Virus record (IMG/VR): IMGVR_UViG_3300022924_000033
Coordinates: 1-22,120 of that record
DNA from: a virus
Length of the DNA stretch: 22,120 nucleotides
Direction: 5' to 3' (one strand)
In this document: positions 3,527 to 17,104 of the stretch, piece by piece
Numbering within the stretch: position 1 is the stretch's first letter
Layout of the letters: each line of letters starts with the position of its first letter
The notes under the pieces: model-generated
The model's input: the letters and a program-made list of their open reading frames with translations, nothing else
What the model was told of the DNA's origin: nothing
Database searches by the model: none
Program-made: the position numbers and the translations under genes

Positions 3527-3754
3527 TCAATTACCTTCGGGCGACAAGAGAGCCTTGTGCTTAGGGTGGATCAATCGAATGCGAGGGACGCCGTATAAGC
3601 GCTCCACTTGGACGATATGCGCGGCGGGAACCCATCCGCACTTGACCCATCGTGAAACCGCCTGGTGCGAAACGCCCAGCTTGCGTGCTAGGACGCCTTG
3701 GCCACCTGCCGCGAGGATCGCGTCGACGACCCCTGATGTTTCTTGCTCTGACAT
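3527..3754 (-). CDS. Cro/YdaS-like helix-turn-helix regulator
   Basis: 75 aa. The helix-turn-helix reads VLARKLGVSHQAVSRWVKCG, followed by VPAAHIVQVERLYGVPRIRL, the layout of YdaS/Cro-type phage repressors. GGAG lies eight bases before the ATG at 3754. The stop lies just before the primase-helicase, so the two form an operon and the protein may control its own replication gene. It is a paralogue of the 4194-4508 product, sharing the G-V-x-x-Q-A-V-x-x-W pattern and a YGVxR motif. It has no peptidase domain, so it is not a LexA/CI-type cleavable repressor. Confidence 0.85.
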   Translation of the reverse strand: MSEQETSGVVDAILAAGGQGVLARKLGVSHQAVSRWVKCGWVPAAHIVQVERLYGVPRIRLIHPKHKALLSPEGN

Positions 3755-3793
3755 GTAGGTATCTCCGTTTTGCTGATGGCGCGAGCATACGCT

Positions 3794-3821
3794 TGCCCGC
3801 AACGAATTTCTACAGTATGTT
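3794..3821 (+). promoter_or_regulatory. Candidate promoter for the 3851 gene
   Basis: TTGCCC at 3794-3799 and TATGTT at 3816-3821 are spaced by 16 bases, 30 bases before the start codon. Both boxes overlap the arms of the inverted repeat 3797-3825, so a protein bound there would compete with RNA polymerase. Confidence 0.4.
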
Positions 3822-4193: not shown

Positions 4194-4508
4194 TCATACG
4201 TCGGACGAGAAGTTAGGTTCGGCGAGGGCGGCAGCGTACTTGGGGTTCATCAGCTCGACGCGGGACACGCCATAGATGCTTTCGATCTCAGGAATGCGAG
4301 CCAGGGGGACGTAGCCAGTCTTCAGCCACTGCTGGACAGCCTGGTAGGTAACGCCGAGTTTATCGGCAGGACCCTGGAGGCTGCCGGCTTTGACTACGAC
4401 ATCTAGGATGCCGCTGTAGCGTTCTGCGTCGAGCAAAGCATTCATAACCGCCAGGGAAGCGCCGTTCTTAACTGCGTATTGGTTCAGTGCTTCGAGTTTC
4501 TTGTCCAT
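4194..4508 (-). CDS. Second Cro/YdaS-like helix-turn-helix regulator
   Basis: 104 aa from the ATG at 4508. A roughly 45-residue helical N-terminus precedes the helix-turn-helix (PADKLGVTYQAVQQWLKTGY) and a tail (IPEIESIYGVSRVELMNPKY) matching the paralogue encoded at 3527-3754. It probably represses at the divergent region 4509-4641, where repeated operator-like sequences cover its own promoter and that of the long plus-strand early operon. As a small non-cleavable repressor it could be the phage's Cro or its maintenance repressor; sequence alone cannot decide. Confidence 0.85.
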   Translation of the reverse strand: MDKKLEALNQYAVKNGASLAVMNALLDAERYSGILDVVVKAGSLQGPADKLGVTYQAVQQWLKTGYVPLARIPEIESIYGVSRVELMNPKYAAALAEPNFSSDV

Positions 4509-4540
4509 CGGTACATCTCGTCTGTGGGGTATTTGTGCGC

Positions 4541-4569
4541 AGGGTACGGCTATTCGCAAGAAAACGCAA
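4541..4569 (-). promoter_or_regulatory. Promoter of the 4508 regulator
   Basis: On the minus strand, -35 TTGCGT (4564-4569) and -10 TACCCT (4541-4546) are exactly 17 bases apart, with the start codon about 33 bases downstream. The repeat at 4556-4570 overlaps the -35 box and the upstream spacer. Confidence 0.55.
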
Positions 4570-6432: not shown

Positions 6433-6608
6433 TTATTCCAAATGGCAGTACGCTCTACGTCATGGCGGAAGAGGAAAGAATCCGCAGCGCCATTATCGAA
6501 CTGGCGTGGCAGAAGTGCGGAATCCAAGGCGACGCGATCCGCCAGCTCGCCACCGCGCTCGTAGCCGAAGGCTATCGCAAATTCGAAATCGTCGAGGAAG
6601 ACGTATGA
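6429..6608 (+). CDS. Hypothetical early protein
   Basis: 59 aa, ATG in an ATGA overlap. Two helices (EEERIRSAIIELAWQKCG and IRQLATALVAEGYRKF) and an acidic tail. Could be a small regulator or structural adapter. No recognisable motif. Confidence 0.65.
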   Translation: MIIPNGSTLYVMAEEERIRSAIIELAWQKCGIQGDAIRQLATALVAEGYRKFEIVEEDV

Positions 6609-6772
6609 CCAAGTGTGAAAAGTATTGGGTGTTTGGCATGATCCTCATGCTTTCCGTTACCCACAAAGAAGTTCCGACGCTGCTGAACTCAATCGGCAAT
6701 GTCGTTGCCTACGTCGGAGGCATTGGATTTTTCGTAGCCATGGTTTGGTGCTTTATCCGGGGTGAAAAATGA
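6605..6772 (+). CDS. Small membrane protein, two predicted helices
   Basis: 55 aa. Hydrophobic segments near residues 7-20 (YWVFGMILMLSV) and 32-51 (VVAYVGGIGFFVAMVWCFI), with a short polar loop (THKEVPTLLNS). It overlaps both neighbours by four bases. Role unknown; holin-like shape cannot be excluded, but a lysis cassette lies elsewhere. Confidence 0.65.
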   Translation: MTKCEKYWVFGMILMLSVTHKEVPTLLNSIGNVVAYVGGIGFFVAMVWCFIRGEK

Positions 6773-7053
6773 CCAATCTCGTGTTGACCCGTAAGGCCGG
6801 CCAGTCCGTTCGCCTTCTGATCGGCGATAAAACGGAATACGTCGAGATCCTCGATGTGACTGGCGGCTTCTGCAAATTCCGTTTGCTGTCCACGCTCCAG
6901 GTGGAACGCGTACGGTTCCGCGACTCCATGCAAATTGCTGAGGGCGTAAGTGTCTGCGTCGTTGACCTCGCCAAAGGCCATGCAAAGCTGAATTTCACAG
7001 CGCCGCGCGATGTTCACATCCTGCGTACTGAACTGATAAAGGAAGAAATCTGA
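6769..7053 (+). CDS. CsrA/RsmA-like RNA-binding protein with two tandem repeats
   Basis: 94 aa. The start (NLVLTRKAGQSVRLLIGD) matches beta-1 and the first turn of CsrA. The end (VCVVDLAKGHAKLNF, then TAPRDVHILRTELI) matches beta-2 to the C-terminal helix, with R86 in the place of the RNA-binding Arg44. The middle (YVEILDVTGGFCKFRLLSTL, then VERVRFRDSM) looks like a first copy of that same segment, with R51 at the matching Arg. CsrA is normally about 60 aa and works as a homodimer binding GGA hairpins, so this may be a single-chain pseudo-dimer. A phage copy could compete with host RsmA or regulate phage mRNAs; this is inference. Confidence 0.7.
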   Translation: MTNLVLTRKAGQSVRLLIGDKTEYVEILDVTGGFCKFRLLSTLQVERVRFRDSMQIAEGVSVCVVDLAKGHAKLNFTAPRDVHILRTELIKEEI

Positions 7054-14695: not shown

Positions 14696-15042
14696 CTCTG
14701 CCGATCGCCACAGAAACTATCGTAGGGATGTACTTGGACCAGCAGATGACAGAGCAGCAGATTGCAGCGAAGCTCGGCTCAAGTCAGCAGATGGTGGCTT
14801 ATAGGTTGCGCAAGGCCGGGGTATCGCTAAAGCGTACCAATAAGCGGTATCTACACCGCGAAATAAAACCTCACATCCCGGTATTACTCGGACTCGTTAG
14901 AGAGTTGCGCCGAAAGCGTAAAGCAATGGCAGAGTTCGTTATTGACACGTCCAACGCGGATTCTGATCGCGTGAAGATGGCCGAAAGTCTCGTACTGATA
15001 AACCGCGAGATAGCGGCCCTGGAAATAGTCGTGAGGAAGTGA
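14692..15042 (+). CDS. Helix-turn-helix protein upstream of polymerase
   Basis: 116 aa, ATG in an ATGA overlap. The helix-turn-helix is MTEQQIAAKLGSSQQMVAYR followed by LRKAGVSLKRTNKR, as in homeodomain-like and resolvase-type DNA-binding units. A basic linker leads to a long C-terminal helix (VKMAESLVLINREIAALEIV). The stop abuts the polymerase start. Likely a DNA-binding accessory or regulator. Confidence 0.75.
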   Translation: MTLPIATETIVGMYLDQQMTEQQIAAKLGSSQQMVAYRLRKAGVSLKRTNKRYLHREIKPHIPVLLGLVRELRRKRKAMAEFVIDTSNADSDRVKMAESLVLINREIAALEIVVRK

Positions 15043-16115
15043 TGAACCTATCTAAATGCATTTTCCTCGACACGGAAACCTTCTGCGATACGCCCATCAA
15101 CAACGGGACGCACCGTTATGCAGAAGGCGCCGAGATCATCATGTGGCAGTGGGCAGTCGGCGAGGGGGAAGTAATCATTCGCGATGGGGATGAAGACATC
15201 AGCGACTTGCTCGCTTTGCTTGAGGATGAAAGTTATGAAGTGGTTATCCACAATTCGGCGTTTGATCGGAATGTCATCCGACACGCCACCGGAATCGTTA
15301 TCCCCGTCGAGCGAGTCTTCGACACCATGGTCTGCGCTATGGCTCACAGCTTGCCCGGGAGCCTATCTACCGTTGGGACTATTCTTGGAGTCGCCCAAGA
15401 CAAAGCCAAAGACAAGGAAGGTAGAACGTGGATCTCTCTGTTCTGCAAACCTCAGCCGAAGGGTCGCAAAATACGTCGAGCCACGAAGCTTACACACCCG
15501 GTAGAGTGGCAACGCTTCCGCGACTACGGCGGCCTTGACATCGAGGCGATGCGGGAGATCTACAAGAAGTTGCCGCGGTGGAATTACCGCGGCGCCGAGA
15601 AGGAGTTGTGGCACCTCGACCAGAAGATCAATGAACGCGGCGTGCTGATGGACTTGGACCTGGCGCACGCTGCGATCCGCGCTTCGGATCGCGCGCAGAA
15701 GATCCACGCAGCCGATGCAGTGCGTTTGACCGATGGCGCAGTGACCAGCGCCAACCAGCGCGACAAGATGCTGGAGCACATCCTGGAGGCTTACGGCGTC
15801 GGCCTTCCCGATTTGCAGATCAGCACATTGGAACGTCGCATCGACGATCCAGATTTGCCGGTTGAGTTGCGCGAACTGCTGGCTGTCAGACTCCAAGCAT
15901 CGAAAACCTCGGTGTCGAAGTATAAGCGGGCGATCAGCGGAACGAGTAGCGATGGCCGTATGCGCGGAACCCTAGCGTTTGATGGGGCTTTACGCACCGG
16001 CAGATGGGCCGGCCGACTCCTCCAAATGCACAACATGCCTAGGCCTACAATCGATAACGACGAAATCGATCTATGGATCGAAGCCCTAAAATCTGATGCG
16101 GAAGACCTCGTATGA
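15042..16115 (+). CDS. Family A DNA polymerase, N-terminal part (3'-5' exonuclease and thumb)
   Basis: 357 aa from ATG at 15042, four bases after GAGGA (GTG at 15039 is too close to it). ExoI FLDTETF (D10, E12), ExoII HNSAFDRN (D75) and ExoIII YGGLDIEAM are intact, so proofreading should work. The end holds the TGRWAGR...MHNMPRP element that precedes the palm. The frame stops at TGA inside an ATGA overlap, and the palm continues in the -1 frame at 16112. Colinear comparison with my memory of single-gene homologues suggests no residues are missing. Two-subunit enzyme, frameshift fusion or sequence error are all open. Confidence 0.85.
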   Translation: MNLSKCIFLDTETFCDTPINNGTHRYAEGAEIIMWQWAVGEGEVIIRDGDEDISDLLALLEDESYEVVIHNSAFDRNVIRHATGIVIPVERVFDTMVCAMAHSLPGSLSTVGTILGVAQDKAKDKEGRTWISLFCKPQPKGRKIRRATKLTHPVEWQRFRDYGGLDIEAMREIYKKLPRWNYRGAEKELWHLDQKINERGVLMDLDLAHAAIRASDRAQKIHAADAVRLTDGAVTSANQRDKMLEHILEAYGVGLPDLQISTLERRIDDPDLPVELRELLAVRLQASKTSVSKYKRAISGTSSDGRMRGTLAFDGALRTGRWAGRLLQMHNMPRPTIDNDEIDLWIEALKSDAEDLV

Positions 16116-17104
16116 CTACCGTTATGGACGCCTGCAGCAGCGCGATTCGCGGCCTTATAATCGCACCTTCTAAAAAGAAACTTGTTATCGCGGATCTTAG
16201 TAATATTGAAGGAAGGGTACTCGCATGGCTGGCCGGCGAGGAGTGGAAGCTTCAAGCGTTCCGCGACTTCGACGCCGGAGAAGGGTTTGACCTCTACAAA
16301 CTGGCTTATGCAAAAGCATTCGGTATTGACCCTTCGTTAGTCGATAAAGATATGAGACAAATCGGAAAAACGATGGAATTGGCTCTAGGATATGCGGGCG
16401 GATGCGGCGCGTTCATTACCTTTTCGCTGGCGTTCAATATCGATTTGGAGAAGATGGCCGAAAAAGCTATCGAAGCGATCCCCAAAAAGACTTTAGACGA
16501 AGCGTCAAGCTTTCTGGAGTGGCAACTCGGCCAGGGCAAAAGCCAGTTCGGCCTATCTGATCAAGCTTTCATCGTTTGCGACAGCTTCAAACGTCTTTGG
16601 CGTGAAGCTCACCCGAACACCGCGACCTACTGGAAGGAACTGGAAAACGGCTGTAGAACGGCGATCAACAATCCCGGGCAGACTTACTCCTGCCGCCGTC
16701 ACAAGATCCGGCGCGATGGCGCTTGGCTCCGGGTAATGCTGCCGAGCGGCCGGTACCTCTGCTATCCGTCGCCGCGCGTCGAAGACGACGGTCAAATAAC
16801 ATTCATGGGTGTCAACCAGTACAGCCGCAAGTGGGAAAGGCTGCGCACATACTCCGGGAAGCTGGTGGAAAATATGTGCCAAGCCACGGCCCGCGATGTC
16901 CTCGCCTCTTCCATGCAGCCGATTGAATCCGCCGGTTATGAAATCGTTCTGACCGTCCACGATGAGATCATCAGCGAAGCGTCGGACACCGACGAGTACA
17001 CGCACGAACACCTGGCCGAACTGATGTCAGCAGGTTGTGACTGGACAGAAGGCCTACCGCTCGCCGCCGCCGGCTTCGAAGCGAAACGATATAGGAAAGG
17101 TTGA
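16112..17104 (+). CDS. Family A DNA polymerase, C-terminal part (palm and fingers)
   Basis: 330 aa. It opens MTTVMDACSSAIRGLIIAPS, which normally lies inside the polymerase chain. Motif A ADLSNIEGR (D28, E33), motif B R-x3-K-x7-YAGG (RQIGKTMELALGYAGG) and motif C VHDEI (H283, D284, E285) are present, so the catalytic carboxylates are intact. It overlaps the exonuclease part by four bases, and no separate ribosome site is obvious, so translation probably depends on coupling with the upstream frame. Works with DUF2815, primase-helicase and SNF2 in replication. Confidence 0.85.
   Translation: MTTVMDACSSAIRGLIIAPSKKKLVIADLSNIEGRVLAWLAGEEWKLQAFRDFDAGEGFDLYKLAYAKAFGIDPSLVDKDMRQIGKTMELALGYAGGCGAFITFSLAFNIDLEKMAEKAIEAIPKKTLDEASSFLEWQLGQGKSQFGLSDQAFIVCDSFKRLWREAHPNTATYWKELENGCRTAINNPGQTYSCRRHKIRRDGAWLRVMLPSGRYLCYPSPRVEDDGQITFMGVNQYSRKWERLRTYSGKLVENMCQATARDVLASSMQPIESAGYEIVLTVHDEIISEASDTDEYTHEHLAELMSAGCDWTEGLPLAAAGFEAKRYRKG

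Follow-up and report, generated by a model that had tools for sequence, protein, structure and literature searches.

A tandem csrA gene in a viral contig

The window, meaning the whole viral contig of 22,120 bases that was analyzed, contains at 6769-7053 (+) a csrA-like gene that extends from an ATG to a TGA (TGA 7051-7053) and encodes a protein of 94 aa (MTNLVLTRKAGQSVRLLIGDKTEYVEILDVTGGFCKFRLLSTLQVERVRFRDSMQIAEGVSVCVVDLAKGHAKLNFTAPRDVHILRTELIKEEI). This protein divides into two parts, each of which can be aligned with CsrA. Residues 1-53 (half 1; 6769..6927, +) correspond to CsrA beta-1 to beta-5 without the C-terminal helix, and residues 54-94 (half 2; 6928..7050, +) correspond to beta-2 to beta-5 without a beta-1.

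The gene resides within a run of short overlapping ORFs. Because its ATG overlaps the stop codon of the preceding ORF and its own stop codon touches the next ATG, the arrangement looks like that of an operon. The preceding ORF (6605..6772, +) encodes a small hydrophobic protein of 55 aa, for which a Pfam search returned no match, and the overlap of its TGA with the csrA ATG may couple the translation of the two. The short ORFs that flank csrA vary between phages much more than csrA itself does.

Other genes near tandem csrA encode an Enc34-type ssDNA-binding protein, a DUF2800 protein, a split DNA polymerase, a helicase, and a primase. By DNA comparison, the nearest named phages are Bordetella BPP-1 and Burkholderia BcepC6B, both podoviruses, with 66-67% identity over ~30% of the 7.6 kb queried. 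The two parts of the DNA polymerase A (15039-16115 and 16112-17104, +) overlap by 4 bases and match consecutive parts of phrog_17 (668-989 and 993-1231), which may reflect either a natural split or a frameshift. Elsewhere in the window, two similar small repressor-like HTH genes (3527-3802 and 4194-4559, −) have related endings (GVPRIRLIHPKH and GVSRVELMNPKY), which suggests a duplicated regulator.

Two CsrA segments are joined in one chain

The sequence-only reading had proposed two tandem CsrA segments in 6769-7053, and this proposal is borne out by Pfam, by profiles of the separate halves, and by column shuffles. The Pfam CsrA model (PF02599) matches the whole protein in two stretches with an E-value of 2.5e-12 and 47 bits, exceeding the gathering cut-off of 27. 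The same reading had proposed a profile search with each half as a check. Half 2 alone passes the cut-off (32.9 bits, 6e-8), whereas half 1 alone (15.9 bits, 0.013) falls below it. In a comparison of half profiles based on eleven representatives from five lineages, the half-1 profile aligns to CsrA 1-38 at 98.3% and the half-2 profile to CsrA 12-57 at 98.8%.

The likeness of half 1 to CsrA extends beyond beta-1. With that strand removed, residues 12-53 align to CsrA in register with a score of 32.8, and the maximum among 200 column shuffles is 17.8 (0/200). The corresponding values are 29.3 and 17.6 when the prophage-like member L099, described below, is omitted, and residues 19-53, which comprise beta-3/beta-4 only, score 20.6 versus a shuffle maximum of 13.4. 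Because the half-1 score lies above all 200 shuffles, the duplication is more than a chance resemblance, and a single CsrA domain carrying an unrelated insert is excluded.

The boundaries originally assigned to the segments were residues 4-51 and 56-94. Both are indeed CsrA-like, but the second begins at beta-2, at about residue 54, and has no beta-1. A second beta-1 concealed in the sequence VERVRFRDS was also considered and rejected, given that residues 40-58 score just 10.3, a value reached in 3 of 200 shuffles, and are aligned to beta-2.

The protein misses both NCBIfam csrA equivalog cut-offs (41.2 versus 73 bits and 39.2 versus 70.1 bits). When compared with NCBIfam models and with solved structures, the fused form is represented by neither, and no description of tandem, fused, or single-chain CsrA was found in a full-text literature search whose coverage excluded most subscription journals.

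Predicted structure

The AlphaFold2 model has nine strands rather than ten (2-9, 13-18, 21-30, 34-39, 45-49, 53-57, 60-68, 71-78, and 83-87), and their predicted order reproduces CsrA beta-1 to beta-5 and then, once more, beta-2 to beta-5. The model has a pLDDT of 88.9 and a pTM of 0.79, with all five models between 80 and 89, and its alignment contained ordinary CsrA rows, which could steer it. An alignment restricted to the family gives the same strands, with the last one broken, and a best pLDDT of 77.4 among five models, the others ranging from 41 to 54.

Among solved structures, the best Foldseek match is RsmF, with a probability of 1.00, a TM-score of 0.70 on the target, and an E-value of 0.07. 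The VIA Z values are 5.5 for RsmF, 5.4 for RsmN, 5.2 for CsrA, and 5.1 for RsmA/CsrA 2bti, and two unrelated beta proteins score higher (7.4 and 6.9). Because solved CsrA structures thus rank beside unrelated beta proteins, the assignment of the fold is not rested on these comparisons. The model is confident, and the strands of the predicted sandwich agree with CsrA in number and placing, yet it resembles solved CsrA folds weakly. Against predicted viral proteins, Foldseek returns 12 matches at E <= 0.001 that span almost the full protein with query TM-scores of 0.67-0.93; most are unnamed, and one is annotated as ‘Carbon storage regulator’. In total, about 16 viral proteins share the predicted fold.

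A single set of RNA-site residues is conserved

The RNA-binding surfaces of CsrA are formed by beta-1 and beta-5 of opposing monomers, with L4 and R44 being the most critical residues (PMC7652899), and the sheet of RsmA has the strand order beta5A-2B-3B-4B-1A (PMC3791407). In complexes of RsmE with RNA, both chains contribute to holding one RNA, chain A through Thr5 and Arg6 and chain B through Arg44 and Glu46 (PMC4005645). Judging from the alignment, the complete set of these contacts would occur once per fused chain, with T7 and R8 of half 1 joined by R86 and E88 of half 2. The first part of this putative composite site resides in beta-1 (L6 T7 R8 K9; 6784..6795, +) and corresponds to CsrA L4 T5 R6 R7. 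The second part extends from the T77-A78-P79-R80 loop to R86 and E88 of beta-5 (6997..7032, +) and corresponds to CsrA P37, R44, and E46. The residues that characterize the RNA site across the CsrA family, L4, R6, P37, and R44, are therefore present as L6, R8, P79, and R86, one set per chain.

Conservation is concentrated on this side of the protein. L4, L6, R8, K73, P79, R86, and E88 are invariant columns among the window family, Vibrio phage D93 (L025), Pseudomonas phage vsMR (L028), and Xanthomonas/Stenotrophomonas plasmids (L036-L038), and the candidate site residues L6, R8, P79, R86, and E88 are still invariant once L099 is included. Mean between-lineage identity is 0.63 in beta-1 and 0.56 in the half-2 loop and beta-5. 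It falls to 0.11, the lowest value for any part, in the half-1 loop and beta-5 (residues 40-53, including R51; 6886..6927, +), where a second site would be expected and appears degenerate. The half-1 loop of two members (L021 and L023) also carries a 9-residue insertion. The most divergent proteins encoded in the same neighborhood (L116, L118, and L119) retain an N-terminal LVLTRR and a C-terminal F-[PH]-RDV-x-I-[VL]-RTE. They are strongly diverged tandem CsrA proteins of close phage relatives, each with a single beta-1 and a single conserved RNA-site motif at the C-terminal end.

Two arginines, R51 and R86, had previously been matched to the RNA-binding position of CsrA. R86 retains this assignment, but R51 does not, as it is invariant in the window's phage group but replaced by L, Q, G, or N in other lineages. 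Nevertheless, R49 and R51 are both invariant within that group, which makes a group-specific use of the second side possible. The accompanying suggestion of a single-chain pseudo-dimer is upheld with respect to the fusion, to which sequence, conservation, and structure prediction all point. The symmetric two-site form that it implied is not upheld, since beta-1 is missing from half 2, and half 1 offers neither a conserved AP loop nor an equivalent of R44.

Tandem csrA is under purifying selection and lies on mobile elements

Tandem CsrA is encoded at 23 viral-contig loci, with identities of 70-100%. When the neighboring ssDNA-binding protein is used as an independent bait, tandem CsrA is found in 20 of 27 close, testable relatives, and none was found in the more distant relatives identified by this bait. 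The gene is under purifying selection, with a dN/dS of 0.16 overall and 0.12 in half 2, and beta-1 displays no amino-acid change (dN = 0). One copy (L024:3527 onward) is frameshifted after about residue 33 and meets an early stop, with its second half intact in another frame, and thus tandem csrA is not indispensable everywhere.

Vibrio phages D93, D71, D81, and D82 carry the same design, at 33% identity over 98% of the protein, as do Pseudomonas phage vsMR and Xanthomonas/Stenotrophomonas plasmid genes annotated as ‘carbon storage regulator’. A further tandem CsrA, L099, resides in a prophage-like element of one gammaproteobacterial genome, beside a tyrosine-recombinase-like ORF. Its half 1 retains FDAPR, which gives L099 the look of an intermediate. 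All five lineages yield two CsrA stretches in Pfam, and the identified members all lie on mobile elements.

L099 was the one clear tandem case when 247 genomes from one family and 274 from one class were searched by profile, with ~40 loci checked by a motif filter and many weaker matches lying outside this check. No tandem CsrA was confirmed when the GTDB genome collection was scanned with the window family's own peptides. A Xanthomonas-based scan recovered ordinary CsrA only, and when viral sequences were scanned with the vsMR and D93 proteins, no relatives emerged. On Xanthomonas citri plasmid plB (L038:2001-2634), the gene immediately downstream of a fused one-site csrA is an ordinary single-domain csrA.

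GGA hairpins and the csrA leader

Hairpins presenting GGA in a hexaloop are not enriched in the phage, numbering 3 compared with 2-8 for other triplets. One such element, CGTC-GAGGAA-GACG at 6590-6603 (+), places a Shine-Dalgarno GGA in the hexaloop. In most relatives, the CGUC-GAGGAA-GACG leader directly precedes csrA, and the window instead has it ahead of the small ORF at 6605, as if this ORF had been inserted between the leader and csrA. The stability of the leader hairpin at the csrA start does not exceed that of shuffled sequences. Autoregulation of csrA through a GGA hairpin at its start codon was therefore rejected: in the window the hairpin precedes the small ORF and is itself coding sequence of the ORF ahead of it, there is no hairpin enrichment, and the fold is no better than shuffles.

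Comparison with known CsrA proteins

Like CsrA, RsmA, and RsmE (PF02599), the fused protein has the family strand order in its predicted structure, the residues of the composite site (L4/R6 with P37/R44/E46), and a match to the family profile. These relatives are known as two-site homodimers of ~60-75 aa, whereas here two copies are fused within 94 aa that include one beta-1 and no first-half helix, an arrangement that would provide one site in place of two identical ones. Another rearranged CsrA relative that departs from the domain-swapped dimer is RsmN/RsmF of Pseudomonas aeruginosa, which is also the source of the nearest solved structure (RsmF). RsmN, however, carries a 16-residue helical insert in its one CsrA domain and is still a two-site dimer (PMC3791407), whereas the middle of the window protein is a second set of CsrA strands. 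The defining arrangement of RsmN/RsmF, one domain whose beta-2 and beta-3 are separated by a helical insert, is thus not what is found, the middle segment being beta and CsrA-like.

CsrA homologs carried by phages are already known (PMC7366521), and the window protein resembles those of the Pseudomonas RsmM phages, F116, and BcepIL02 (gp49), as well as RsmQ, in being encoded on a mobile element (PMC7366521, PMC9928087). All of the phage and plasmid proteins inspected from these groups have one CsrA domain, unlike the fused protein. RsmQ forms homodimers and also heterodimers with host Rsm proteins (PMC9928087), whereas the fused protein would need no partner. The BcepIL02 CsrA-like protein (L026:3980-4174, 64 aa) has lost the usual MLILTR beta-1 as well as the R44/E46 motif (IDRQPQ), and the major capsid gene directly follows the gene that encodes it.

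Further parallels are three proteins of 113-116 aa from Xanthomonas/Stenotrophomonas plasmids (WP_041854964.1, WP_227415728.1, and WP_157768254.1), which are likewise fused, with one beta-1 and one site, and whose annotation does not recognize this design. Unlike the window protein, they keep the C-terminal HREEV helix region.

A putative one-site intramolecular pseudo-dimer

The explanation that accounts best for these features, and that we consider probable, is an intramolecular CsrA pseudo-dimer with a single predicted RNA-binding site, which would engage one GGA motif per molecule and would not bridge two. Both protomers of the domain-swapped CsrA dimer would be fused, with half 1 supplying beta-1 to beta-5 and half 2 supplying beta-2 to beta-5. 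The beta-1 strand of half 1 would pack beside beta-4 of half 2, much as beta-1 of chain A lies beside beta-4 of chain B in RsmA. Beta-1 of half 1 and, from half 2, the AP loop and beta-5 would together form one composite GGA site (L6, T7, and R8 with P79, R86, and E88). The mirror site would have been lost, as beta-1 occurs just once and the loop and beta-5 of half 1 are degenerate.

CsrA represses hfq mRNA from a single site over the Shine-Dalgarno sequence (PMC7652899), and the fused protein would most likely act in a similar way, as a monomer on one GGA motif. Given this precedent, a one-site protein plausibly works as a simple block to translation, and the mRNAs repressed may belong to the phage or to the host. 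Tuning of phage translation is among the possible outcomes. Because it needs no partner, such a protein should be independent of host CsrA, and it would probably be held less well by multi-site sponge RNAs.

Several other arrangements can be weighed against this one. It seems quite unlikely that the chain is a symmetric pseudo-dimer with two working RNA sites in which R51 serves as a second R44. As such a role would predict, the window's phage group shows little or no variation at R51 and in the ERVRFR strand, but the L4/T5/R6 part of a second site is absent along with beta-1 of half 2, the half-1 loop has no AP and is variable in length, and the substitutions of R51 in other lineages (L, Q, G, or N) speak against it as well. 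It is highly improbable that the protein is a single, unduplicated RsmN/RsmF-like CsrA domain in which a 35-residue insertion separates beta-2 from beta-3. RsmF is the best solved match, and the model aligns with it over residues 1-89 (54 positions, 33% identity), but this insertion in place of a duplication is largely refuted by the column shuffles, as the supposedly inserted stretch matches CsrA beta-3/beta-4 in register above all 200 of them. In addition, L099 has FDAPR within that stretch, and the RsmN insert is a helix (PMC3791407), whereas AlphaFold2 predicts strands for the window protein.

The remaining alternatives concern function and assembly. Conceivably, a one-site protein could serve as an anti-Csr decoy, filling GGA motifs in host mRNAs or sponge RNAs without bridging them and thereby undoing host CsrA regulation as a dominant negative. 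In keeping with this, an R44A change in one pocket of CsrA leaves glgC incompletely repressed (PMC7652899), the plasmid protein RsmQ acts on host Rsm sRNAs and proteins (PMC9928087), and every identified member sits on a mobile element. However, the hosts of the nearest phages are Bordetella and Burkholderia, and chromosomal csrA is lacking in B. cepacia and B. cenocepacia (PMC7366521). A decoy role is unlikely in our view. The sheet order of RsmA suggests that the missing beta-1 would leave the beta-4 edge of half 1 exposed, and the fused protein might still dimerize through this open edge into a larger two-site assembly. Nothing speaks directly against such an assembly, but the single-chain model is confident, and we regard dimerization as improbable.

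The fused, putatively one-site CsrA is a variant within the known CsrA family and is distributed over several mobile elements. A broader and more tentative possibility is that mobile elements have given rise to a separate and recurring kind of CsrA, both single-chain and monovalent, which regulates or blocks GGA-site mRNAs outside host Gac/Rsm control. Within this reading, insulation from host CsrA would arise because subunits cannot swap, and poor retention by multi-site sponge RNAs would arise because the protein does not bridge. The fused design also indicates that phage and plasmid proteins annotated just as ‘carbon storage regulator’ or ‘hypothetical protein’ constitute a separate architecture. 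The need of CsrA for two sites has so far been studied with engineered one-pocket dimers (PMC7652899). If the one-site pseudo-dimer is correct, a natural single-chain CsrA with one site would allow the need for two RNA sites to be tested directly, as well as the value of insulation from host CsrA and its sponge RNAs.
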